Assembly: GCF_000513995.1 (NCBI RefSeq)
Contig: NZ_AZVB01000009.1
Coordinates: 1-64,000, forward strand
Length of the DNA: 64,000 bases
Direction: 5' to 3'
Source of the DNA: Pseudoxanthomonas sp. J35
GTDB lineage: Bacteria > Pseudomonadota > Gammaproteobacteria > Xanthomonadales > Xanthomonadaceae
How positions within the stretch are numbered: the stretch's first letter is position 1; each line of letters begins with the position of its first letter. The position numbers and the translations under genes are program-made. The notes under the pieces are model-generated. The model had not been told where the DNA came from and did not search any database. It was given only the letters and a program-made list of their open reading frames with translations. This document shows, piece after piece, positions 4,553 to 48,476 of this stretch.

Positions 4553-6190
4553 CTACGCGGCAGGTACGGCGAGCTGCGGCGGCGAGGCCGGGTCCGAGGC
4601 GATGGCCGGCACGCGCCCGCGCACGATGTCCGCCGCGCGTTCGGCCATCGCGATCACCGGCGCGTTGGTGTTGCCGCCGACCAGGGTCGGCATCACCGAG
4701 GCGTCGACCACGCGCAGTCCGTCCACACCGCGCACGCGCAGCTGCGGATCGACCACGGCGTGGTCGTCCACGCCCATGCGGCAGGTGCCGACCGGGTGGT
4801 AGATGGTCTCGGCCTTGGCGCGGACGAACTCGGCCAGGCCGGCGTCGTCCAGGTCCTCGCGCGCCGGGTGGATCGGCGCGCCGCGGTAGCGGTCGAACGC
4901 CGGTTGCGCCAGCAACTCGCGTGACAGCTTCGCGCACTCGGCCATCATGCGCAGGTCGAAGCCTCCAGGGTCGCTCAGGTAGTTGGCCTCGATCCGCGGC
5001 GCGCTGCGTGGATCGGCGTCGCGCAGGGCGATGCGGCCGCGGCTGCGCGGGCGCAGGAAGCAGGCGTGCACGGTCATGCCGTCGCCTTGCAGGCGGTTGC
5101 GGCCGTGGTCGTCGAGCATCGCCGGGACGAAGTGGAACTGCACGTCGGGGCGGTCGTCCGGCGCCAGCGCGGAGCGGACGAAGCCGCCGGCCTCGGCGAT
5201 GTTGCTGCTGCCGGCGCCGCGGCGCCCGCGCAGGAAGTAGTCGAAGGCGATCTTCAGCTCGCTGGCGCGGTCGTAGCTGAGGCCGGGCGGGCAGTGGTAC
5301 AGGGTGCAGATGTCCAGGTGGTCCTGCAGGTTGGCGCCGACGCCCGGCAGGTCGGCGTGCACCTGGATGCCGTGGCCGCGCAGCTGCGCCGCCGGGCCGA
5401 TGCCGGAGAGCATCAGCAGCTGCGGCGAGTTGATCGCGCCGGCGCTGAGCAGGATCTCGCCGGCGGCCCCGGCGCGGTGCAGGCGGCGCCCGGTGGCGTA
5501 CTCGACCGCGGTGGCGCGGCCGTGTTCGACCACGATCCGCCGCACCAGCGCGCCGGTGGCCACGTGCAGGTTCGGCCGCGCGCGCGCCGGCGCCAGGTAG
5601 GCGACCGCGGCCGAGCAACGCGCGCCGTCGCGCTGGGTCACCTGGTAGAAGCCGAAGCCGTCCTGGCGTGGGCCGTTGAAGTCGTCGTTGCGGCCCCAGC
5701 CGGCCTGCACGCCGGCCTCGACGAAGGCTTCCGAGAGCGGGTTGCGGTGACGCAGGTCGGAGACCCGCAGCGGGCCGCCGGTGCCGTGCAGCGGCGAGGC
5801 GCCGCGCGCGTTGTCTTCGGCGCGCAGGAAGTACGGCAGCAGCGCGTCCCAACTCCAGCCGGCCGCGCCGGCCCGCTCCCATTCGTCGTAGTCGCCGGGG
5901 ACGCCGCGGGTGTAGCACATCGCGTTGATCGAGCTGCAGCCGCCGAGCACCTTGCCGCGCGGCCACCACAGGCGGCGCCCGTGCAGCTGCGGCTCCGGCT
6001 CGGTGCTGTAGTTCCAGTTCACCGTGCGGTTGTTGGCCAGGCGGCCGAGGCCGGCGGGCATGTGGATCATCGGGTTCCAGTCGCGCGGCCCGGCTTCCAG
6101 CAGCAGCACCCGGCAGGCCGGGTCCTTGCTCAGCCGTGCGGCCAGCACGCAGCCGGCCGATCCGGCTCCGATCACGATGAAGTCGTACAT
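4553..6190 (-). CDS. GMC family FAD-dependent oxidoreductase (choline/alcohol dehydrogenase type)
   Basis: 545 residues from ATG 6190, preceded by GGGGGA, so the longer in-frame extension upstream is rejected. The N-terminal dinucleotide-binding motif GAGSAG follows the first beta strand (V-I-G-A-G-S-A-G). Other family marks are GGCSSINAM near residue 90, the C-terminal HPVGTCRMG with the catalytic His, and the GNTNAP block near the end. Family members oxidise alcohols or choline to aldehydes with flavin. BetA, AlkJ and polyethylene-glycol dehydrogenases are close in sequence and I cannot tell them apart. No betB or betI is adjacent, so an alcohol dehydrogenase role is somewhat more likely than glycine betaine synthesis. 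Confidence 0.88.
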   Translation of the reverse strand: MYDFIVIGAGSAGCVLAARLSKDPACRVLLLEAGPRDWNPMIHMPAGLGRLANNRTVNWNYSTEPEPQLHGRRLWWPRGKVLGGCSSINAMCYTRGVPGDYDEWERAGAAGWSWDALLPYFLRAEDNARGASPLHGTGGPLRVSDLRHRNPLSEAFVEAGVQAGWGRNDDFNGPRQDGFGFYQVTQRDGARCSAAVAYLAPARARPNLHVATGALVRRIVVEHGRATAVEYATGRRLHRAGAAGEILLSAGAINSPQLLMLSGIGPAAQLRGHGIQVHADLPGVGANLQDHLDICTLYHCPPGLSYDRASELKIAFDYFLRGRRGAGSSNIAEAGGFVRSALAPDDRPDVQFHFVPAMLDDHGRNRLQGDGMTVHACFLRPRSRGRIALRDADPRSAPRIEANYLSDPGGFDLRMMAECAKLSRELLAQPAFDRYRGAPIHPAREDLDDAGLAEFVRAKAETIYHPVGTCRMGVDDHAVVDPQLRVRGVDGLRVVDASVMPTLVGGNTNAPVIAMAERAADIVRGRVPAIASDPASPPQLAVPAA

Positions 6191-6366
6191 GGATCCCCCG
6201 TCGTCCGCCGCCATCGCGGCACCGGGATGCTGTGGGCAGGCGGCGCATGCACGCAAGGCCCCCGGGCGTACGGCGCGGGGCGCTCTGGCGATGTTGCGCT
6301 GCATCGTATACTTCGAGCCAAGGACGGACCGTGTGGGCCGGCCGGTTCTACACCCCGGGAACGCCC

Positions 6367-7731
6367 ATGACCCCTGCAGACACGGCGCCCAGCCGCCTCG
6401 GCCGTCTCCGCTCGGCGATGTCCGAATCGCCGCCGCTGGTCTGGGCGTTCGTGTACTTCTTCTGCCTGCTCAGCGGCTACTACGTGCTGCGCCCGGTGCG
6501 CGAGGCGATGGGCGCCTCGGCCGACGTGGAGGCGATCTTCCCGCCGGCGATGATCGGCTTCTTCGCCGAACGCGGCATCGCCCTGCGCGAGTTCACCCTG
6601 CAGGTACTGTTCACCTGCACCTTCCTGATCATGCTGGCGCTGCAGCCGGTGTACGGCTGGCTGGTCAGCCGCTTCCCGCGGCGGGTGTTCCTGCCGGTGG
6701 TGTACGGCTTCTTCATCGCCACCCTGCTGGGCTTCTACGTGCTGTTCGACAGCGGCGTGCCGGGGCGGGGCATGGCCTTCTTCCTCTGGATCACGGTGTT
6801 CAACCTGTTCGCGGTGGCCGTGTTCTGGAGTTTCATGGCCGACGTTTTCAGCAACGCCGAGGCGCGCGCCTACTACGGCTACATCGGCGCGGCCGGCACC
6901 CTGGGCGCCTTCCTCGGGCCGATCCTCACCCGCAGCCTGGTCGAGCGGGTCGGCATCGCCAACCTGATGCTGGTGTCGGCCGGGTTCCTGGCCATGTGCG
7001 TGGTCTGCCTGCTGCGGCTGCGGCTGTGGGCGGTGGCCCGCGAGCAGGCGCGCGGCGTGGCCAGCGGCGAGGTGCCGATGGGCGGCGAGGTGCTGGCCGG
7101 GCTCAAGCTGGTCCTGCGCGAGCCGCTGCTGCGCTGGATGGCGCTGATGGTGGTCGGCGGCGTCGGCGTGGGCACGCTGCTGTACAACGAGCAGGCGGCG
7201 ATCGTGCGCCGCGCCTACAGCGACCCGGCCGCGGCCACCGCGTTCTACGCGACCCTGGACCTGGCGGTGAACGCGCTGACCCTGGTGGTGCAGCTGCTGG
7301 TCACCCGCGGCCTGATGTCGCGCTTCGGCATCGCCCCGGCGCTGCTGATCCCCGGCTGCGCGATCATCGTCGGCTTCTCGGTGCTGGCCGCCTCGCCGCT
7401 GCCGCTGATCGTGGCGGTGGTGCAGGTGGTGACCCGCGCCAGCGAGTTCTCCCTGGCCAAGCCGGCGCGCGAGACGATCTATACCCGGGTCGGCCGCGAG
7501 TGGCGCTACAAGGCCGGCGCGGCCATCGATACGGTGATCTACCGCGGCGCCGACCTGAGCTTCGTCTGGCTGCACAAGCCGCTGTCGCTGATCGGTTCCA
7601 GCGCGGTGTTCGGCGCCGGCGCGCTGGTCGCCGCCGCGATGACCTTCTCCGCGTTGCGGCTGCTGCGCCAGGAGAAGAAGCTGCCCGACGAGCGCGGCGC
7701 GGCGGTGCCGGCGGCCGACGCGGCCGCCTGA
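6367..7731 (+). CDS. Polytopic carrier, ATP/ADP antiporter-like (NTP/NDP exchanger or MFS)
   Basis: 454 residues from ATG 6367; the extra 45 residues upstream are not protein-like. About 11-12 hydrophobic segments are visible. The N-terminal stretch Y-Y-V-L-R-P-V-R-E (about 38-46) and the S-F-M-A-D-V-F segment are typical of proteins annotated as MFS transporters that belong to the AAA (ATP:ADP antiporter) superfamily. True Tlc translocases occur in obligate intracellular bacteria; free-living bacteria carry homologues of unknown substrate. It is divergent from the GMC oxidoreductase, with a TATACT -10-like box at 6306-6311. Substrate unknown. Confidence 0.75.
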   Translation: MTPADTAPSRLGRLRSAMSESPPLVWAFVYFFCLLSGYYVLRPVREAMGASADVEAIFPPAMIGFFAERGIALREFTLQVLFTCTFLIMLALQPVYGWLVSRFPRRVFLPVVYGFFIATLLGFYVLFDSGVPGRGMAFFLWITVFNLFAVAVFWSFMADVFSNAEARAYYGYIGAAGTLGAFLGPILTRSLVERVGIANLMLVSAGFLAMCVVCLLRLRLWAVAREQARGVASGEVPMGGEVLAGLKLVLREPLLRWMALMVVGGVGVGTLLYNEQAAIVRRAYSDPAAATAFYATLDLAVNALTLVVQLLVTRGLMSRFGIAPALLIPGCAIIVGFSVLAASPLPLIVAVVQVVTRASEFSLAKPARETIYTRVGREWRYKAGAAIDTVIYRGADLSFVWLHKPLSLIGSSAVFGAGALVAAAMTFSALRLLRQEKKLPDERGAAVPAADAAA

Positions 7732-7750
7732 ACGGGCAGCCTCCCGCCCG

Positions 7751-8245
7751 TTACCGGCGGGACGCGACGGCCGGTCGCGCCGGCTTCGGCGAGATCCACA
7801 TCATCACCCGCGCGCGGAACACCACCTCGCCGGCCGGGTTGCGCGCCTCCACCGCCACCGGCAGCTCGTAGGCCTCGCCGGCCTCGACCAGCGCGCCTTC
7901 CGGGGTGGCGGTGGCATGGATGCTGCCCACGGCCTTCTTCAGGTACTCCACCGTCATCCCGCGCGGGATCCAGCGCATCGAAGCCGGCACGGTGGCGTCG
8001 GTCATCACCCCGGCGACCAGTTCGGCCAGGTTGCACAGCGCGATGGCGTGGACCGTGCCGAGGTGGTTGGTGACCTTGCGGCGGTGCCCGATCGTCGCCT
8101 CGCAGCGGCCCGGTTCGAGCACGGTGATGCGCGGGGCGATGGTGGCGAAGTAGGGCGCCTTGAAGCAGACCGCGCGCGAGAACAGCCAGCCTCCGGCCGG
8201 CCAGCGCTGCATGCGGCGCCAGGTGTCGAGCAGGCGGTTGGACAT
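7751..8245 (-). CDS. Hotdog-fold protein, DUF4442 / acyl-CoA thioesterase-like
   Basis: 164 residues. The central segment T-N-H-L-G-T-V-H-A-I-A (about 58-68) is the hotdog-fold region that binds acyl thioesters in PaaI/DUF4442 proteins, and a C-terminal strand carries A-R-V-M-M-W-I. Such proteins usually hydrolyse or bind acyl-CoA. It lies downstream of fadE on the same strand, 91 bp after its stop with a hairpin between them, so it may share fatty-acid metabolism without being in the same transcript. It is convergent with the carrier gene, 19 bp away. Confidence 0.75.
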   Translation of the reverse strand: MSNRLLDTWRRMQRWPAGGWLFSRAVCFKAPYFATIAPRITVLEPGRCEATIGHRRKVTNHLGTVHAIALCNLAELVAGVMTDATVPASMRWIPRGMTVEYLKKAVGSIHATATPEGALVEAGEAYELPVAVEARNPAGEVVFRARVMMWISPKPARPAVASRR

Positions 8246-8336: not shown

Positions 8337-10808
8337 TCAGGCCGCTTCGCGGGTACCCGGCTTGTGCTGGTCGTAGTAGCTGGCCGCGCGCAGCTCGTGG
8401 GCGTCGAAGTCGTCCACGGTGATCGCCTCGAGGGTGATCTGGCGCAGTTCTTCCAGCTGCTTGCGCTCTTCGGCGGTGATCACGCCCTCGCCCACGGCCT
8501 CGTCCAGCTGCGCCGGGAAGTCCAGCGCCTCGATGCCCTTGGTCTTGAGCGCCTTGAGGAACTTGCGCTCGACCGGCTCGGCGGCCACGGCCTTGGCCAG
8601 GTAGCTGTCGATGCGGCCACCCGGGTTGTTCTCGCACGGGGTCAGGAACACGCCCTGGCCCAGGCGGTCGCGCGCTTCGTTCGGCGACATCAGCAGCGAG
8701 GCCACGCGGTGGTTCAGGCGGTCGCCGGGGGCCTCGGCGCGACGGCCCAGCGGGAACACCAGCGCCCACAGCAGCCAGCCCACCGGGCGGATCGGGAAGT
8801 TGCGCAGCGCGTCGGACAGTGCCTTCTCGATCACGTAGAAGCTGTTGTACATGCTCCACGCCAGCAGCGGCTTGTCCGCTTCCGGGCAGCCCTCGTCGTG
8901 GTAGCGCTTGAGCACCGCGCCGGCCATGTACAGGTGGCTCAGCACGTCGCCCAGGCGGCCGGACAGCGATTCCTTGAACTTCAGCTTGCCGCCCAGCAGC
9001 AGCATCGACAGGTCGGTCATCAACGCCAGGTTGGCCGAGTACCGGTCGAGCTTGCGGAAGAACGGACGGGTGTAGTCGTCGCCCGGGACGCTGCCGAACC
9101 TGGAGCCGGTCAGGCCCATCCAGAACGAACGCACGGCGTTGGAGATGCCGTAGCGGACGTGGCCGGCCAGGCTCTCATCGAAGGATTCGACGGCGGCCTT
9201 GCGGTCCTTGTCCTGCGCCGCCTTCATTTCCTTCATCACCCACGGATGGCACAGGATCGCGCCCTGGCCGAAGATCAGCAGGCTGCGGGTCATGATGTTG
9301 GCGCCTTCCACGGTCACGCCGATCGGCGCAGCCTGCCAGGCGCGGCCGGCGAAGTTGCGCGGGCCGAGGATGATGCCCTTGCCGCCGATCACGTCCATCA
9401 CGTCGGTGATCACTTCGCGGCCCATGGTGGTGCAGTGGTACTTGGCGATCGCCGACGGCACCGACGGCACGTCGCCGCGGTCCACAGCCGCGGCGGTGGC
9501 CTGGGCCAGCGCGCTGGCGGTGTAGGCCTTGCCGCCGATGCGGGCCAGCGCTTCCTCGACGCCCTCGAAGCGGCCGACCGACAGGCCGAACTGCTTGCGG
9601 ATGCGGGCGTAGGCGCCGGTCACGCGGGCGCCGAACTTGGCACCGCCGGAAGCGGTGGAGGGCAGGGTGATCGAGCGGCCCACGGCCAGGCACTCGTTGA
9701 GCATGTTCCAGCCCTTGCCGGCCATCTCGGCGCCGCCGATCAACTGGCTCAGCGGGATGAACACGTCCTTGCCGCGGATCGGGCCGTTCTGGAACGGGGA
9801 GTTCAGCGGGAAGTGGCGGCGGCCGATCTCCACGCCGGCGGTGTCACGCGGCAGCAGCGCCAGGGTGATGCCGATGTCCTTGGTGTCGCCCAGCAGGCCG
9901 TCCGGGTCGTACATGCGGAAGGCCAGGCCGATCAGGGTCGCGACCGGGGCCAGGGTGATGTAGCGCTTGTCGAAGGTCAGGCGCACGCCGAGCACGTTGG
10001 CGCCATTCCACTCTCCCTTGCAGACGATGCCGTAGTCCGGGATCGAGGTCGCGTCGGAGCCGGCGAACGGGCCGGTCAGGCCGAAGCAGGGCACTTCCTG
10101 GCCGACGGCCAGGCGCGGCAGGTAGTACTCCTTCTGCTCCCTGGTGCCGTAGTGGTTGAGCAGCTCGCCCGGGCCCAGCGAGTTGGGCACACCGACGGTG
10201 GAGCTGACCACCGAGGAGACCGAGGCGATCTTCTGGATGACCTTGTGGTGGGCGAGGGCCGAGAAGCCCAGGCCGCCGTACTCCTTCGGGATGATCATGC
10301 CGAAGAACTTGTTCTTCTTGATGAAGTCCCACAGCTCCGGCGGCAGGTCCGCGTGGACGTGGGTGATCTCCCAGTCGTTGATCATCCTGCACAGCTCCTC
10401 GACCGGGCCGTCGAGGAAGGCCTGCTCTTCGGCGGTGAGCTGCGGCTTGGGATAGTCCAGCAGCTTCTGCCAGTCCGGATCGCCGGTGAACAGTTCGCCC
10501 TCGAAGCCGACCGAACCGGTCTCCAGGGCGATGCGCTCGGTCTGCGACAGCGGCGGCAGGATCTTGCGGAACACGTCCAGCAGCGGCGCCACCAGCAGCG
10601 GCTTGCGGATGAACGGCAGCAGCAGCGGCACGGCGATGACCGCTGCGACGATGGCCACGACCGCGGTGGCGGTCTGGTTGGCGCCGAGCAGCCAGCAGGC
10701 GACCAGGGCGGTGGCGAGGAGGGCTGCCCACGCGGCGAGGCGCCAGCGGTGGTATGCGGCGAATGCGCTGATCAGTATGAATGCCAGGATTGGCGCGGCG
10801 ATGCTCAT
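8337..10808 (-). CDS. fadE: Acyl-CoA dehydrogenase FadE
   Basis: 823 residues, close to the 814 of E. coli FadE. It catalyses the first oxidation step of fatty-acid beta-oxidation (acyl-CoA to trans-2-enoyl-CoA, FAD-linked). Two N-terminal hydrophobic segments (about 5-28 and 45-70) are followed by the acyl-CoA dehydrogenase N-terminal, middle and C-terminal domains, with E-Y-G-G-L-G-F-S, C-F-G-L-T-G-P-F-A-G-S-D and the G-G-K-G-I block recognisable, then the long FadE-specific C-terminal extension. Its ATG overlaps the stop of the upstream hydrolase gene by four bases (ATGA), indicating translational coupling. Control by the divergent TetR regulator is inferred. Confidence 0.95.
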   Translation of the reverse strand: MSIAAPILAFILISAFAAYHRWRLAAWAALLATALVACWLLGANQTATAVVAIVAAVIAVPLLLPFIRKPLLVAPLLDVFRKILPPLSQTERIALETGSVGFEGELFTGDPDWQKLLDYPKPQLTAEEQAFLDGPVEELCRMINDWEITHVHADLPPELWDFIKKNKFFGMIIPKEYGGLGFSALAHHKVIQKIASVSSVVSSTVGVPNSLGPGELLNHYGTREQKEYYLPRLAVGQEVPCFGLTGPFAGSDATSIPDYGIVCKGEWNGANVLGVRLTFDKRYITLAPVATLIGLAFRMYDPDGLLGDTKDIGITLALLPRDTAGVEIGRRHFPLNSPFQNGPIRGKDVFIPLSQLIGGAEMAGKGWNMLNECLAVGRSITLPSTASGGAKFGARVTGAYARIRKQFGLSVGRFEGVEEALARIGGKAYTASALAQATAAAVDRGDVPSVPSAIAKYHCTTMGREVITDVMDVIGGKGIILGPRNFAGRAWQAAPIGVTVEGANIMTRSLLIFGQGAILCHPWVMKEMKAAQDKDRKAAVESFDESLAGHVRYGISNAVRSFWMGLTGSRFGSVPGDDYTRPFFRKLDRYSANLALMTDLSMLLLGGKLKFKESLSGRLGDVLSHLYMAGAVLKRYHDEGCPEADKPLLAWSMYNSFYVIEKALSDALRNFPIRPVGWLLWALVFPLGRRAEAPGDRLNHRVASLLMSPNEARDRLGQGVFLTPCENNPGGRIDSYLAKAVAAEPVERKFLKALKTKGIEALDFPAQLDEAVGEGVITAEERKQLEELRQITLEAITVDDFDAHELRAASYYDQHKPGTREAA

Positions 10809-11746
10809 GGGTCTGCTCCGGTGACGGGCGCTGGAGCCCGGTCTGCGGTGGAAGTCCCGGAACTTTCGCTCCGGTCCAGTTCCGCCAGATATTCCAGCAC
10901 GGTGGCGGTAAAGCGGTCGTTGTCGTCGCCGGCCAGCATATGCGTGGCATCGGCGAGCTGCACATGGCGCGCGTGCGGCGCCAGTTCGAGGAAATGCCCG
11001 ATGGTCTGCGCGGACACCAGGTCGCTGCGGCCGCCGCTGACCAGCAGCAGCGGGCAGCGCACCGCGCGGGTGGCCGCGGCGATGTCGTCCTGGTGGCGTT
11101 CGGCGTCGCGCGCCAGCTCGTCGACCAGGCGCGGGTCCCAGTGCCAGCGCCAGCGGCCGTCTCCGCCCTGGCGCAGCAGTTCGCGCAGGGTTCCCGGCGA
11201 CTTGCGGCCGCGGCGGTGCGGCAGGTAGGCGGCGATCGCGTCGGCAGCCTCGTCCAGCGAGGCGAAGCCGTGCGGGAAGGCGGTCATGAAGCCGAGCACG
11301 CGCTCGACCCCGGCCGCTTCCCAGCGCGGGGTGATGTCGACCAGCACCATCGCCCGGAACAGGCCGGGCCAGCGCGCCTCGGCGAGCAGGCCGAACAGCC
11401 CGCCCATCGAGGCGGCGACCAGCACCGGCGGCTGCGGCAGTTCGCCGGCCAGCACGATCAGGTCGTCGGTGAACTGGTGCCCCGTGTAGGGCTCGCCCGG
11501 TGCATTGCGGTCCGAGCCGCCATGGCCGCGGGCGTCGTAGGCCAGGCCAGGGAGGCCATGCGCGGCGAGCGTGGCGGCGGTGGCCGACCAGGCGCCGCGG
11601 GTCTGGCCGAAGCCGTGCGCGTACACCACGGCGGGGGCCTCGTGGCCCTGCCCGGCGGCGTGGCAGCGGGTGGCAGCCAGCGCCAGTCCCGCGCCTTCAA
11701 GGCGCAGGTCGACGACCGTGGGGACGGTAGTGGCAGCCAAATCCAT
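10805..11746 (-). CDS. Alpha/beta hydrolase
   Basis: 313 residues from ATG 11746. An alpha/beta-hydrolase fold is supported by the oxyanion segment Y-A-H-G-F-G-Q (about 42-48), the nucleophile elbow A-A-S-M-G-G (G-x-S-x-G with Ala in the first position), and the catalytic His in A-T-H-M-L near residue 275. The segment Y-D-A-R-G-H-G-G-S-D is also characteristic. It probably cleaves an ester or thioester related to FadE substrates. It is the first gene of a two-gene operon with fadE. Its start codon lies inside an 18-bp palindrome (11743-11760), and in the 38 codons upstream I see nothing protein-like, so a leaderless transcript is possible. Confidence 0.8.
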   Translation of the reverse strand: MDLAATTVPTVVDLRLEGAGLALAATRCHAAGQGHEAPAVVYAHGFGQTRGAWSATAATLAAHGLPGLAYDARGHGGSDRNAPGEPYTGHQFTDDLIVLAGELPQPPVLVAASMGGLFGLLAEARWPGLFRAMVLVDITPRWEAAGVERVLGFMTAFPHGFASLDEAADAIAAYLPHRRGRKSPGTLRELLRQGGDGRWRWHWDPRLVDELARDAERHQDDIAAATRAVRCPLLLVSGGRSDLVSAQTIGHFLELAPHARHVQLADATHMLAGDDNDRFTATVLEYLAELDRSESSGTSTADRAPAPVTGADP

Positions 11747-44909: not shown

Positions 44910-45785
44910 ATGTCCGTTCTGGTTAACAAGAATACGAAGGTGATCGTGCAGGGCTTCACCGGCCAGCAGGGCACCTTCCACGCCGAGCAGATGGTCGAAT
45001 ACGGGACCAAGGTCGTCGGCGGCGTCACCCCGGGCAAGGGCGGCCAGGAACACATCGGCCTGCCGGTTTTCAACACCGTCGCCGACGCGGTCGCCGAGAC
45101 CGGCGCCGACGCTTCGGTCATCTACGTCCCGCCGCCGTTCGCGGCCGACGCGATCCTGGAAGCGGCCGCGGCCGGCATCAAGGTCATCGTCGCCATCACC
45201 GAGGGCATCCCGGTGCTGGACATGCTGCGCGTGAAGAACGTGCTGAAGGGCTACGACGACGTGGTCCTGATCGGCCCGAACTGCCCCGGCATCATCACCC
45301 CGGGCGAGTGCAAGATCGGCATCATGCCGGGCCACATCCACAAGCCGGGCAAGATCGGCATCGTCTCGCGTTCGGGCACGCTGACCTATGAAGCGGTCAA
45401 GCAGACCACCGACGCGGGCCTGGGCCAGTCGACCTGTATTGGTATTGGCGGCGACCCGATCAACGGCCTGAACTTCGTCGACTGCCTCAAGCTGTTCAAC
45501 GAGGACCCGCAGACCGAGGGCATCATCATGGTCGGCGAGATCGGCGGCAGCGCCGAGGAAGAAGGCGCCGAGTACATCAAGAACCACGTCAGGAAGCCGG
45601 TCGTCGGCTTCATCGCCGGCGCTTCGGCCCCTCCGGGCAAGCGCATGGGCCACGCCGGCGCGATCGCGTCGGGCGGCCAGGGCACGGCCGAGGGCAAGTT
45701 CGCGGCGATGGAAGCGGCGGGCATCACCACCGTCCGTTCGCCGGGCGACCTGGGCGCGGCCATGAAGGCCCGCCTGGGCGGCTGA
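44910..45785 (+). CDS. sucD: Succinyl-CoA synthetase alpha subunit
   Basis: 291 residues. The subunit carries the phosphohistidine and binds CoA. The Rossmann-like N-terminus has [11 protein letters not shown], then G-P-N-C-P-G-I-I (about 125-132), and the active-site His lies in R-M-G-H-A-G-A-I near 248. AAGGA at 44897-44901 serves as ribosome site. A strong terminator follows. Confidence 0.98.
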
Positions 45786-45807
45786 CCCAGCCGACCGCGT
45801 CACACGG

Positions 45808-45837
45808 AAAGGCCGCCTCCGGGCGGCCTTTTCTTTT
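45808..45837 (+). terminator. rho-independent terminator of sucCD
   Basis: AAAGGCCGCC-TCCG-GGCGGCCTTT, a perfect stem with a four-base loop, followed by a T-rich tail to 45837. It is the strongest terminator in the window and isolates the following island. Confidence 0.9.
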
Positions 45838-45866
45838 GACCTTCGCGCGGCCCTTTCCGAAGTGGT

Positions 45867-45884
45867 TATCGGACTTTCCCGATA
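45867..45884. promoter_or_regulatory. inverted repeat upstream of the double-glycine peptide gene
   Basis: TATCGG-ACTTTC-CCGATA, a perfect 6-bp inverted repeat 98 bp before the peptide start, in an AT-richer stretch than the surroundings. It is a possible operator for the peptide/membrane-protein pair. Confidence 0.35.
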
Positions 45885-45981
45885 GACGTCCAGCGAGCCA
45901 TGCGTTGGGATTGTGGTGCGCGGGACACTTGCGTTCCGGCCCCGGTGCGCAGGGCATCGCGCCAAGTACCCTGAGGAGGCA

Positions 45982-46155
45982 ATGGAAATGCGCGAACTTG
46001 AATCCGATGAGACCCACGGTGTCGAGGGAGGCCTGGGCACGTTTGTCCGCCTCGTGGGCGGCGCAGTGGTGAGATACATCCTGACCGGAGACAACTCGGG
46101 AAACTCGTTCGAACAAGGGGACCCGTCGATCGTTTCCAACGTATACGGGGCATGA
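45982..46155 (+). CDS. Small peptide with double-glycine leader (bacteriocin-like)
   Basis: 57 residues from ATG 45982, with a near-perfect AGGAGG at 45974-45979. The N-terminal 17 residues read M-R-E-L-(x)2-D-E-(x)3-V-E-G-G from residue 3, which matches the double-glycine leader of class II bacteriocins and microcins cleaved by C39 peptidase exporters. The predicted mature part is 40 residues with no cysteine. Its first half is hydrophobic (F-V-R-L-V-G-G-A-V-V-R-Y-I-L) and its tail polar (T-G-D-N-S-G-N-S, ending Y-G-A). GC is about 59% by hand count against about 77% in neighbours. I do not recognise a close relative. It could also be a quorum or competence-type peptide. The membrane protein gene follows after 71 bp. 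Confidence 0.65.
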   Translation: MEMRELESDETHGVEGGLGTFVRLVGGAVVRYILTGDNSGNSFEQGDPSIVSNVYGA

Positions 46156-46176
46156 GCTTGGCTTGTACGCGACGGC

Positions 46177-46198
46177 GGGCGGGGTTGGGGTCCCGCCC
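46177..46198 (+). other. hairpin between peptide and membrane-protein genes
   Basis: GGGCGGG (46177-46183) pairs with CCCGCCC (46192-46198) across an eight-base loop. No T run follows. In a peptide/immunity operon this could act as an attenuator that lowers expression of the second gene, or as an mRNA stabiliser. Confidence 0.4.
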
Positions 46199-46226
46199 GT
46201 CACCTGCAAGAAGATCGGGAGTGCAT

Positions 46227-46712
46227 ATGCTGGACGAGGCAGTACGCTTCCTCAGGCATTACAGGTTCCCTTTTCCATCGATTCCGGCCTGGAGTCTGGC
46301 GACTTTCCTCGCCGGCCTGCTCGTCTCCGGGGTTCTGTATCTTTCCGGTGTGGAGATTCCGGAAGACCTGGTGGATCGTCTCTGGACCAGTCCGGCCCTC
46401 GACTTTGCCCTCGATGTGGTCGTGGTGCCACTACTGGAGACGCTTCTGCTCCTCGGCCTGTTCGGCCTGCTGTCGCTTGGTCTCAAACCCCTCGCTGCCG
46501 CCCTGGCGAGCGCCTTGGTGATGGCCGGCCTGCACGCCGTGGTGTGGTGGGGATGGGGGGTGATTTCCCTCCTCCCGTTCCTTGCCTTCTCGCTGCCGAT
46601 GGCCGCGCGCATCAGGAGGGGCAGGGCGTTCCTGGTCTCGGCCTCGATGCACGGCTTCCACAACCTCTACGTGCTGCTCCTGTCGGGGCTGATGCTCCGG
46701 TTCGGCATCTAG
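46227..46712 (+). CDS. Small CPBP (Abi)-like integral membrane protein, possible immunity partner
   Basis: 161 residues from ATG 46227, with CGGGAG at 46216-46221. Four to five transmembrane helices are visible (about 22-40, 60-85, 88-110, 112-127, 134-157). CPBP protease signatures are partly kept: Glu71 in P-L-L-E-T (motif 1, but without the second Glu and Arg), His103 in the x3-H motif, and H-G-F-H-N (142-146) fitting HxxxN. CPBP proteins include bacteriocin self-immunity factors and prenyl-protein-type proteases. With the degenerate motif 1, catalysis is doubtful. An in-frame ATG at 46152 overlaps the peptide stop (ATGA), but the added residues are not protein-like. GC is near 59% in the first 90 bases. 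Confidence 0.65.
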   Translation: MLDEAVRFLRHYRFPFPSIPAWSLATFLAGLLVSGVLYLSGVEIPEDLVDRLWTSPALDFALDVVVVPLLETLLLLGLFGLLSLGLKPLAAALASALVMAGLHAVVWWGWGVISLLPFLAFSLPMAARIRRGRAFLVSASMHGFHNLYVLLLSGLMLRFGI

Positions 46713-46838
46713 GCCCAGGTCCCGCTAACCCTGTCGTGCAGTGTGGTGGGGTGGCGGCGCGTGGCATCAAGGACCGTTCACTGCGCCGCCTCCGGGCCGA
46801 CCGGTATCATGGCCGCGCCCCCACGAACGGTAGTCGCC

Positions 46839-48476
46839 ATGAAGGATTCCCTGCGCATCGCCCTGGCCCAGTTCGACTTCCCGGTCGGCGCGGTGGCCGG
46901 CAACGCGGAGCGGATCGCCGAGATGATCGTCGACGCGCGCGACGAGTACGGCGCCGACATCGTCCTGTTCCCGGAGCTGGCGCTCAGCGGCTACCCGCCG
47001 GAGGACCTGCTGCTGCGGCCGTCGTTCCTGGCCGAATGCGAGGCGGCGCTGCAGCGCATCGCCGCCGGCGTGCACGGCATCGTCGCGGTGGTGGGCTGGC
47101 CGGAGTCGGCCGGCCCGGTGCTGTACAACTCCGCCAGCGTGCTGCGCGACGGTCGCATCGAGGTGACCTACCGCAAGCGCGAGCTGCCCAACTACGCGGT
47201 GTTCGACGAGCGCCGCTACTTCGAGGTCGATCCGGACGGCGGCCCCTGCGTGTTCGAAGTGGAAGGCGTGCCGGTGGGCGTGGTGGTGTGCGAGGACCTG
47301 TGGTTCCCCGAGCCGCTGGCCGACACGGTGAAGGCCGGCGCGCAGCTGGTCCTGGTGCCCAACGCCTCGCCGTTCGAGCGCGGCAAGCACGCCCAGCGCG
47401 ATGCGCTGCTGGCCGAACGCACCCGCGAGACCGGCGCGGCGCTGGCCTACCTCAACCTGGTCGGTGGCCAGGACTCGGTGGTGTTCGACGGGGCCTCGGT
47501 GGTCGCCGACGGCGACGGCACCGTGCACCCGGCCGCGGCCGCCTTCACCGACCAGTGGCTGCTGGTCGACTACGACACCGCCGGACGCCGCTTCGTCCCG
47601 GTGCAGTGGATGGACGACGGCGACGAGAGCATGGACGCGCTGGCCTGGCGCGCCATCGTGCGCGGCATCCAGGACTACTTCCGCAAGAACGGTTTCTCGC
47701 GCGCCTGGCTGGGCCTGTCCGGCGGCATCGACTCGGCGCTGGTGCTGGCGCTGGCGGTGGACGCGCTGGGCGCGGAGAACGTCACCGCGGTGCGCCTGCC
47801 TTCGCGCTATACCGCCGACCTGTCCAACGACCTGGCCGCCGAGCAGTGCGCGGCGCTGGGAGTGAGGCTGGAGACGGTGGCGATCGAGCCGGCGTTCCAG
47901 GGCTTCCTGCAGGCGCTGGAACCGCTGTTCGCCGGCCACGGGGTCGACACCACCGAGGAGAACCTGCAGTCGCGCAGCCGCGGCGCGATCCTGATGGCGC
48001 TGTCGAACAAGTTCGGCGGGCTGCTGCTGACCACCGGCAACAAGAGCGAGTACGCGGTCGGTTACGCCACCATCTACGGCGACATGTGCGGCGGCTACGC
48101 GCCGCTGAAGGACCTGTACAAGACCGAGGTGTTCGGCCTGGCCAAGTGGCGCAACACGGTCGGCGGGGCGCCGGTGATCCCGCCGGCGGTGATCTCGCGG
48201 CCGCCCTCGGCCGAGTTGCGCGCCAACCAGTTGGACCAGGACTCGCTGCCGGCCTATGACGTGCTCGACGGCATCCTCTACCGCTACGTGGACCAGGAAC
48301 AGTCGCGCGGGGAGATCGTCGCCGCCGGCTATGCGCCGGAGGTGGTGGACCGGGTGCTGCGCCTGGTGCGGACCAGCGAATGGAAGCGCCACCAGGCCGC
48401 GCCGGGGCCGAAGGTCTCGCGGCGCGCGTTCGGACGCGAGCGCCGCTATCCGATCAGCAACGGCTTCCGCCACTGA
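46839..48476 (+). CDS. nadE: NAD+ synthase, glutamine-hydrolysing
   Basis: 545 residues from ATG 46839; upstream in-frame ATGs lack protein-like sequence. The N-terminal nitrilase-fold glutaminase has the triad Glu (F-P-E-L-A-L-S-G-Y), Lys (Y-R-K-R-E-L-P-N-Y) and Cys (V-V-C-E-D-L-W-F). The C-terminal synthetase has the PP-loop S-G-G-I-D-S-A-L (near 285). It converts nicotinate adenine dinucleotide to NAD with glutamine or ammonia. A GGTATCAT element at 46802-46809 may be its -10 region. Confidence 0.96.
   Translation: MKDSLRIALAQFDFPVGAVAGNAERIAEMIVDARDEYGADIVLFPELALSGYPPEDLLLRPSFLAECEAALQRIAAGVHGIVAVVGWPESAGPVLYNSASVLRDGRIEVTYRKRELPNYAVFDERRYFEVDPDGGPCVFEVEGVPVGVVVCEDLWFPEPLADTVKAGAQLVLVPNASPFERGKHAQRDALLAERTRETGAALAYLNLVGGQDSVVFDGASVVADGDGTVHPAAAAFTDQWLLVDYDTAGRRFVPVQWMDDGDESMDALAWRAIVRGIQDYFRKNGFSRAWLGLSGGIDSALVLALAVDALGAENVTAVRLPSRYTADLSNDLAAEQCAALGVRLETVAIEPAFQGFLQALEPLFAGHGVDTTEENLQSRSRGAILMALSNKFGGLLLTTGNKSEYAVGYATIYGDMCGGYAPLKDLYKTEVFGLAKWRNTVGGAPVIPPAVISRPPSAELRANQLDQDSLPAYDVLDGILYRYVDQEQSRGEIVAAGYAPEVVDRVLRLVRTSEWKRHQAAPGPKVSRRAFGRERRYPISNGFRH

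Follow-up and report, generated by a model that had tools for sequence, protein, structure and literature searches.

Class II microcins such as MccV and MccH47 are encoded by loci that combine a peptide with a leader ending in GG or GA, a C39 ABC protein with a membrane fusion protein, and an adjacent immunity gene, and one exporter can serve several peptides (PMC10233263, PMC9746304). In the accessible text of these accounts, conserved sequence features do not serve to locate the immunity genes, and those that have been verified are without obvious similarity (PMC10233263, PMC9746304). The mcbABCI locus of Moraxella catarrhalis, also Gram-negative, encodes an adaptor, an ABC protein and a GG peptide, together with an adjacent immunity protein of 74 aa that has been verified and for which the available part of the report gives no significant similarity to others (PMC2761928). 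CdzCDI of Caulobacter uses type I secretion for two proteins with RTX-like N-terminal regions, and its small inner-membrane immunity protein, CdzI, has three predicted spans and, as stated in the accessible excerpt, no obvious homologues (PMC5380434). In Gram-positive hosts, bacteriocin loci such as pln contain Abi proteins with a CAAX-protease motif, several of which help to protect the producer itself (Kjos 2010, cited in PMC4467070).

The locus described here, which lies within a 64,000-nt stretch of DNA (the window), is similar to each of these systems in some respects and different in others. As in the class II microcins, there is an N-terminal leader ending in a double glycine (MRELESDETHGVEGG), which relatives of the peptide share in type, and a gene for a small membrane protein (161 aa) lies 71 nt from the peptide gene. 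The partner is CPBP-like, however, and the peptides of this group end in [ASQ]N[VT]YG[AT] rather than in the Gly/Ser-rich tail of class IIb microcins. The likeness to mcbABCI lies in a Gram-negative host and in a set of secretion genes, GG peptide and putative immunity gene, but the mcbABCI exporter is adjacent whereas the window pair is an orphan with no adjacent exporter. With CdzCDI the shared elements are a Gram-negative host, type I secretion and a small membrane protein as the candidate for immunity. The Abi/CPBP proteins of the pln loci differ in belonging to Gram-positive hosts and in the first motif, where the window protein has Glu-Thr without Arg instead of EExxxR. We take EExxxR to be the motif of the CPBP/Abi family.

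A sequence-only reading of this DNA had stated that no pair of this kind was described. That was too strong, since Abi/CPBP self-immunity beside bacteriocins is known in Gram-positives, at least as summarized in the accessible text of PMC4467070. For CPBP immunity to a Gram-negative GG peptide, we recognised no paper in a literature search conducted largely without full texts. Xylella fastidiosa belongs, we assume, to the same bacterial family as the host of the window. Putative MccV-like GG-leader microcins have been described for X. fastidiosa (PMC10233263), with leaders in XF1219 and XF1694 (PMC2761928), and a 2026 study presents Xanthomonas microcin candidates with CPBP absent from its main text (PMC13174018).

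The insert between sucD and nadE

Table 1. Features of the sucD–nadE region of the window, and exporter genes on another contig of the same genome.
Feature	Position	Strand	Basis
sucD, left flank, host core gene	44910-45785	+	ORF; Pfam CoA_binding and Ligase_CoA
Hairpin after sucD, probable terminator, left border of insert	45806-45833	+	-24.9 kcal/mol, z -3.94; similar sequence by eye in relatives' sucD-nadE gaps
Inserted unit, approximate limits	45838-46795	+	Pair present only in the window's sucD locus (n=12 with nadE in reach); GC3 below flanks
AGGAGG ribosome-binding site	45974-45979	+	8 nt upstream of ATG 45988
GG-leader peptide precursor, preferred start	45988-46155	+	AGGAGG spacing and start of relatives; start 45982 of the sequence-only reading is in frame
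Leader MRELESDETHGVEGG	45988-46032	+	Leader type of seven tail-sharing peptides, mean pairwise identity 51%
Mature peptide, 40 residues (predicted)	46033-46152	+	Tail common to seven pair loci
Conserved tail SNVYGA	46135-46152	+	Tail common to seven pair loci
11-pair GC-rich hairpin between peptide and membrane gene	46174-46201	+	Folding; similarly placed hairpin in 11/11 close type A pairs
CPBP-like membrane protein, 161 aa	46227-46712	+	PF02517 E 0.0028, 18.3 bits, cut-off 22.4 bits
CPBP-like residues E71; H103; H142; N146	46437-46439; 46533-46535; 46650-46652; 46662-46664	+	Sequence reading
nadE, right flank, host core gene	46839-48476	+	ORF; Pfam NAD_synthase and CN_hydrolase
C39 ABC protein; HlyD-type adaptor (own-genome contig C33, L014)	9211-11325; 6180-7415		QSEAAECG read in sequence

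The peptide and membrane ORFs reported by the sequence-only reading are both present; their frames are intact and lie on the same strand, with the membrane gene starting 71 nt 3′ of the peptide stop. The frame 45982-46155 translates as MEMRELESDETHGVEGG followed by LGTF...SNVYGA. The ribosome-binding site proposed for it is also there, but it lies 2 nt from the ATG at 45982, the start then chosen, and 8 nt from the ATG at 45988, so the MREL start at 45988, giving a precursor of 55 aa, is the likelier of the two. The pair is lower in GC than its surroundings (peptide 59.1% and membrane gene 64.0%, compared with 67.5% for sucD, 71.4% for nadE and 71.9% for the window), although the earlier contrast of 59% with 77% was overstated. 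At third codon positions, the values are 70% for the peptide and 81% for the membrane gene, against 93-96% in the flanks. A pattern scan of 45000-48000 listed no sigma-70-like promoter. The strong terminator said to precede the pair is borne out by folding (z -3.94, with none of 200 shuffles equally stable) but not by a simple pattern scan of the same interval, which listed no terminator-like site despite the strong fold of the sucD hairpin.

The two-gene unit is an insertion between sucD and nadE. sucD was matched in all 17 genomes of the genus at E <= 0.001 and strongly in 16; these 16 sucD loci, the window included, were examined, with the weakly matching G272 left out, and nadE was in reach in 12 of them. 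The sucD–nadE gap measures 1053 nt in the window, 109-534 nt in ten relatives and 968 nt in G251, and the peptide–CPBP pair is absent from the 11 readable loci of the genus other than that of the window. This distribution, together with GC3 values below those of the flanks, agrees with the earlier view of an acquired unit. The G251 gap (L084) contains a 271-aa ORF; the strict leader detector described below found no GG leader in it, and CPBP profile A1 found no CPBP in the G251 genome. In G136, G060, G203 and G010 (L082, L083, L087 and L091), nadE is out of reach downstream of sucD, and an ORF there recalls a sigma factor by eye. The sucD–nadE interval may be an insertion hot spot.

Peptide–CPBP pairs in related genomes

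All four residues that the sequence-only reading had assigned to the CPBP/Abi signature are found in the window protein. In an alignment of 17 rows, E71 and N146 are invariant, H142 is present in 16 and H103 in 15; the exceptions are G091:C14, with Gln for H103, and G579:C46, with Gln for both H103 and H142. We take the conserved Glu, His, His and Asn to be the catalytic residues of CPBP/Abi proteins (PF02517). The first motif reads PLLETLLLLG in the window, with Glu-Thr and no Arg, and the second Glu is absent from all 17 rows, so that EExxxR is not found in any of them. Paired CPBPs are 14-33% identical to the window protein, and 13 of 17 relatives match PF02517 at E <= 1 (best 3.9e-7). The window protein is thus best described as CPBP-like, on the grounds of its descent and core residues, and it is not a formal Pfam member because its score (18.3 bits, E 0.0028) is below the gathering cut-off of 22.4 bits. 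A fold model based on three sequences is helical (pLDDT 77.5, pTM 0.64; pTM 0.39 for the single-sequence model). Foldseek gave no match to the membrane protein in the PDB at E <= 0.001, and a profile search of PDB sequences gave 0 matches.

Two arrangements of such pairs were distinguished. In type A loci, one or more GG peptides precede a CPBP gene whose first motif reads Glu-Thr, Glu-Ala or Glu-Ser; 12 such loci were identified in ten genomes, with both genes on the same strand (window, G091:C8, G091:C14, G274, G016, G293, G215, G579:C46, G579:C188, G495, G491 and G172:C2), that is, 11 loci in nine genomes of two families besides the window's. Type B loci have a pair of GG peptides, of which the first ends in LGAMQYGA and the second has GA instead in some loci, and then a CPBP with Glu-Asn; they occur in G136, G203, G227 and on contig C17 of the window's own genome, where there are two tandem CPBPs. 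The C17 locus (L056, 8016-9541, minus strand) looks like a second bacteriocin-like locus, in which a hairpin and the tandem CPBP-like genes accompany two GG/GA peptides. The strict detector revealed a further pair in G188, a member of the window's genus, where VSGS stands at the position of GG; on the reverse strand of L141 (G188:C104), its peptide (740-940, leader MRELSSLEVSSVSGS, end GLGA) overlaps the CPBP-like frame (867-1409).

Several further arrangements were seen at these loci. On the reverse strand of L168 (G172:C2, 7847-8961), five successive GG-leader peptides lie 3′ of one C39 exporter and are followed by the CPBP gene. For two CPBPs outside the paired set (G106 and G261), the locus also encodes GG peptides and a C39 exporter, in a different gene order. 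In G261 (L164, 6226-6840), the CPBP-containing ORF opens with a stretch (QSEVSECALASLA) that resembles a C39 exporter N-terminus, and downstream of it come a GG peptide and a complete C39 exporter; this ORF is possibly an exporter remnant fused to a CPBP gene. A similar gene with CKIGFS..PL.RI.ALHPRWFE, which by eye recalls GIY-YIG-like proteins, is present beside CPBPs in the type B locus L056 (7334-8023, minus strand) and in G262 (L012).

The searches began with the window protein and went on to profile A1, built from 8 rows, and profile A3, built from 17; A1 excluded L009-L011 after no peptide was seen beside them, and A3 consists of paired CPBPs only. The window protein alone had matches in 10 of 297 genomes of the family and A3 in 21 of 297 (E <= 1e-6). 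Related CPBP-like genes are found in 28 of 397 genomes of the order, many of these being distant CPBPs, in 6 of 38 and 9 of 17 genomes of two genera, and in 10 of 369 genomes of the class (E <= 1e-5). In a second family, matches were obtained in 21 of 233 genomes, and only two reach at least 141 bits, both of them paired and both members of A3. A first scan of genome contigs and a search of viral contigs gave no relative, and a search of plasmids gave no match for P0001 or P0002.

Seven peptides share the [ASQ]N[VT]YG[AT] ending. On average, any two of them are identical at 51% of leader positions, 30% of middle positions and 60% of the last ten residues, and the common leader and tail show that the peptide frame is conserved among related loci, a point on which the sequence-only reading depended. 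Four type A pairs (G293, G016, G091:C14 and G579:C46) have a CPBP and no YGA tail. A profile of the YGA peptides gave 12 matches in 10 of 297 genomes of the family: four are full-length, all adjoin a CPBP gene and all are members of the profile (profile A4 contains these four), and the remaining eight, one of which is the G091:C14 pair, extend over no more than the first 40-51 of the 64 positions. The window peptide matched no Pfam or NCBIfam model at E <= 10, including TIGR03949 (class IIb bacteriocin lactobin A/cerein 7B), which one of seven peptides from relatives does match (E 0.0022).

The intergenic hairpin of the window is modest when considered alone (z -0.31 for a 74-nt segment; z -1.80 for a 60-nt segment, where 10 of 200 shuffles folded as stably). 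In each of the 11 close type A pairs (G172:C2 is the one left out), however, a GC-rich hairpin of at least nine pairs starts 6-20 nt past the peptide stop, with z from -0.04 (G579:C46) to -5.40 (window -1.80) and no apparent sequence relation between the stems. The hairpins 3′ of the second peptide in the four type B loci have z values of -4.90, -2.38, -0.12 and -3.80. A clear simple hairpin also follows two of four GG peptides of other operons (that of G106 and the third peptide of G293), so the feature is not peculiar to the cassette. It could act as an attenuator or mRNA stabiliser, which would hold peptide expression above immunity expression.

Several comparisons bear on whether the pairing exceeds chance. 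Among CPBP matches above 60 bits outside profile A1, GG peptides are found upstream in 9 of 10, G172:C19 being the one without. On a tree of 58 CPBP rows, the paired label requires 5 changes, compared with a mean of 15.0 for shuffled labels (none of 500 as low); paired CPBPs are clustered but do not form one clade, and G188 was entered as unpaired. A strict leader detector, devised once the pairs had been recognised, flagged a peptide within 750 nt upstream of 17/17 paired rows, 1/58 others (G188) and nothing on 247,494 nt of reverse strand; the 17/17 is true by definition, because the paired rows were in part picked by hand once peptides had been seen. Two of the 17 rows are less direct, being the second tandem CPBP of C17 and G172:C2, where the nearest peptide ends 449 nt before the match. 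A loose detector flagged 17/17 paired rows and 5/41 others, including G188, which it picked at a later start without a leader. Among distant CPBPs of the second family it flagged 6 of 17, five of these being one recurring membrane ORF, and no GG leader was seen by eye in any of the six or, at first, in the 5/41. The earliest detectors overlooked true pairs, and no leader detector is blind because all were tuned after pairs had been seen.

Judged by these sequences, the window pair does exceed chance, because its frame and pairing recur at related loci and the strict detector found nothing on the reverse strand. A chance ORF in place of the peptide was rejected on the recurrence of frame and tail in relatives, and the combination of an ordinary CPBP gene with a random upstream ORF was rejected on the strict detector (17/17 versus 1/58). 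Does the membrane gene regularly occur without a peptide, as the sequence-only reading thought might be the case if it were wrong? No GG peptide is visible at G262, G935 and G172:C19, in or near the CPBP group; within the pair-linked group only G262 lacks one, but more distant CPBPs do stand alone.

Exporters beside the pairs and on other contigs

Seven of the 12 type A loci contain hlyD and a C39-peptidase ABC gene. The order is hlyD-peptide-CPBP-ABC in G274 and G495 and hlyD-peptide-CPBP-peptides-ABC in G293; in G091:C14, G491 and G579:C46, hlyD, another peptide and ABC precede the peptide and CPBP, and in G172:C2 hlyD and ABC are followed by the five peptides and the CPBP gene. Neither hlyD nor ABC was matched in the stretches around G091:C8, G016, G215, G579:C188 and the four type B loci. 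In G293 (L016), a copy of the hlyD 3′ end lies 3′ of the CPBP gene, with 147 of 168 columns identical, so that the duplicated end (6591-6758 and 7592-7760) is present on both sides of the peptide–CPBP cassette. This duplication is likely the recombination scar of an inserted cassette comprising the hlyD end, the peptide and the CPBP gene. Around the window insert, no hlyD or ABC remnant was found (best E 0.70).

The sequence-only reading had supposed an exporter elsewhere in the genome, and one is found on another contig. A C39 domain scan of 15 genomes (13 bearing pairs, G262 and G935) gave an open frame of at least 700 aa in 14, and in the nine where it was compared by similarity this frame is an ABC exporter; the remaining genome, G016, has a short C39 match only, and its pair lies at a contig edge. 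In the window's own genome, contig C33 carries hlyD, two other GG peptides and a 704-aa C39 ABC protein. The C33 ABC protein is 80% identical to that of G274, whose operon holds a pair of this kind, and the HlyD proteins are 65% identical; with both genes in the same genome, export of the window peptide in trans by the C33 exporter is plausible. The two GG-leader peptides of this operon (L014, 6180-11325) are of another kind, and between them are small ORFs with signal-like N-termini by eye. LysR-like and trpB-like ORFs lie 3′ of the C33 exporter, and a LysR-like ORF is also seen in G172 (L168), in each case by eye.

Function of the pair

We consider the insert to be, with good probability, a horizontally acquired class II microcin-like bacteriocin cassette with a cognate CPBP-like immunity protein and export in trans. 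Cleavage, export, killing and immunity, as well as the roles of the hairpin and tail, are what we infer from comparison of the loci. In this model, a precursor peptide with a leader ending in GG would be cut after the double glycine and exported, as a peptide of ~40 residues, by the C39-peptidase ABC protein and HlyD-like adaptor encoded on C33, and cognate immunity would be conferred by the neighbouring CPBP-like membrane protein. The peptide may be modular, with a leader for the exporter, a tail perhaps for uptake and a middle for killing and matched immunity; such a design fits because the middle and the CPBPs are divergent while the leader and tail are conserved.

A more detailed scheme can be offered tentatively, and we think it somewhat doubtful as a whole. 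Mobile peptide–hairpin–CPBP cassettes, with a common leader and a C-terminal uptake tail, would share an exporter in trans, and immunity would come from a CPBP-type glutamic protease that cleaves its cognate peptide within the membrane, a few members having turned into non-proteolytic binders. That two members have lost a catalytic His is a hint that proteolysis is not required for immunity throughout the group. To go by its title, a 2024 report by Kim et al. reportedly concerns a Vibrio cholerae microcin with 'proteolytic immunity'.

The sequence-only reading allowed for either a peptide/immunity or a peptide/processing unit, and a unit of this sort is supported, since none of the three refuting conditions it named held in these data. 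Of the two, peptide/immunity appears favoured because of the synteny with peptide exporters and because catalytic residues are lost in two members. A processing protease would act in maturation, for example at the conserved tail, and the product could be a bacteriocin or some other secreted peptide with immunity encoded elsewhere or unneeded. Retention of the Glu/His/His/Asn core in most members is in keeping with such a role, as are the conservation of the tail beside highly divergent CPBPs and the matches of some members to intramembrane proteases of sorting systems (MrtS, best E 2.6e-7; MrtJ, best E 1.9e-4). We nevertheless regard maturation as unlikely: His103 is replaced by Gln in two paired members, one of which has also lost His142, the four type A pairs without a YGA tail keep their CPBP, and the peptide tails are short, polar by eye and without a membrane span.

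It is also rather improbable that the peptide serves as a pheromone after secretion, with the CPBP-like protein regulating a sensor from within the membrane, since inspection of the loci surveyed by eye turned up no sensor gene and the peptide middle and CPBPs vary as in matched toxin/immunity pairs. There is a possible parallel for signalling in Abx1, an Abi-domain protein of group B Streptococcus that is said to act on a sensor kinase; in addition, a weak resemblance to BlpC (E 0.051) was seen for one type B peptide, and the LysR-like ORFs on C33 and in G172 adjoin exporters. The lack of an adjacent exporter and the presence of the pair in one of the 12 readable intervals of the genus would suit a relic, a cassette that has decayed, lacks an active exporter and persists by chance. 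Both frames are intact, however, with the ribosome-binding site and conserved residues in place, and the exporter and adaptor frames elsewhere in the genome are intact as well, which makes a relic very unlikely.

If the insert is indeed a microcin-like cassette with CPBP-like immunity, its partner gene, which can be found by profile, would provide a handle on such peptides in the Lysobacteraceae (Xanthomonadaceae), including orphans located far from exporters. The natural catalytic-site variants among the paired CPBPs would bear on the question of whether CPBP immunity needs proteolysis.
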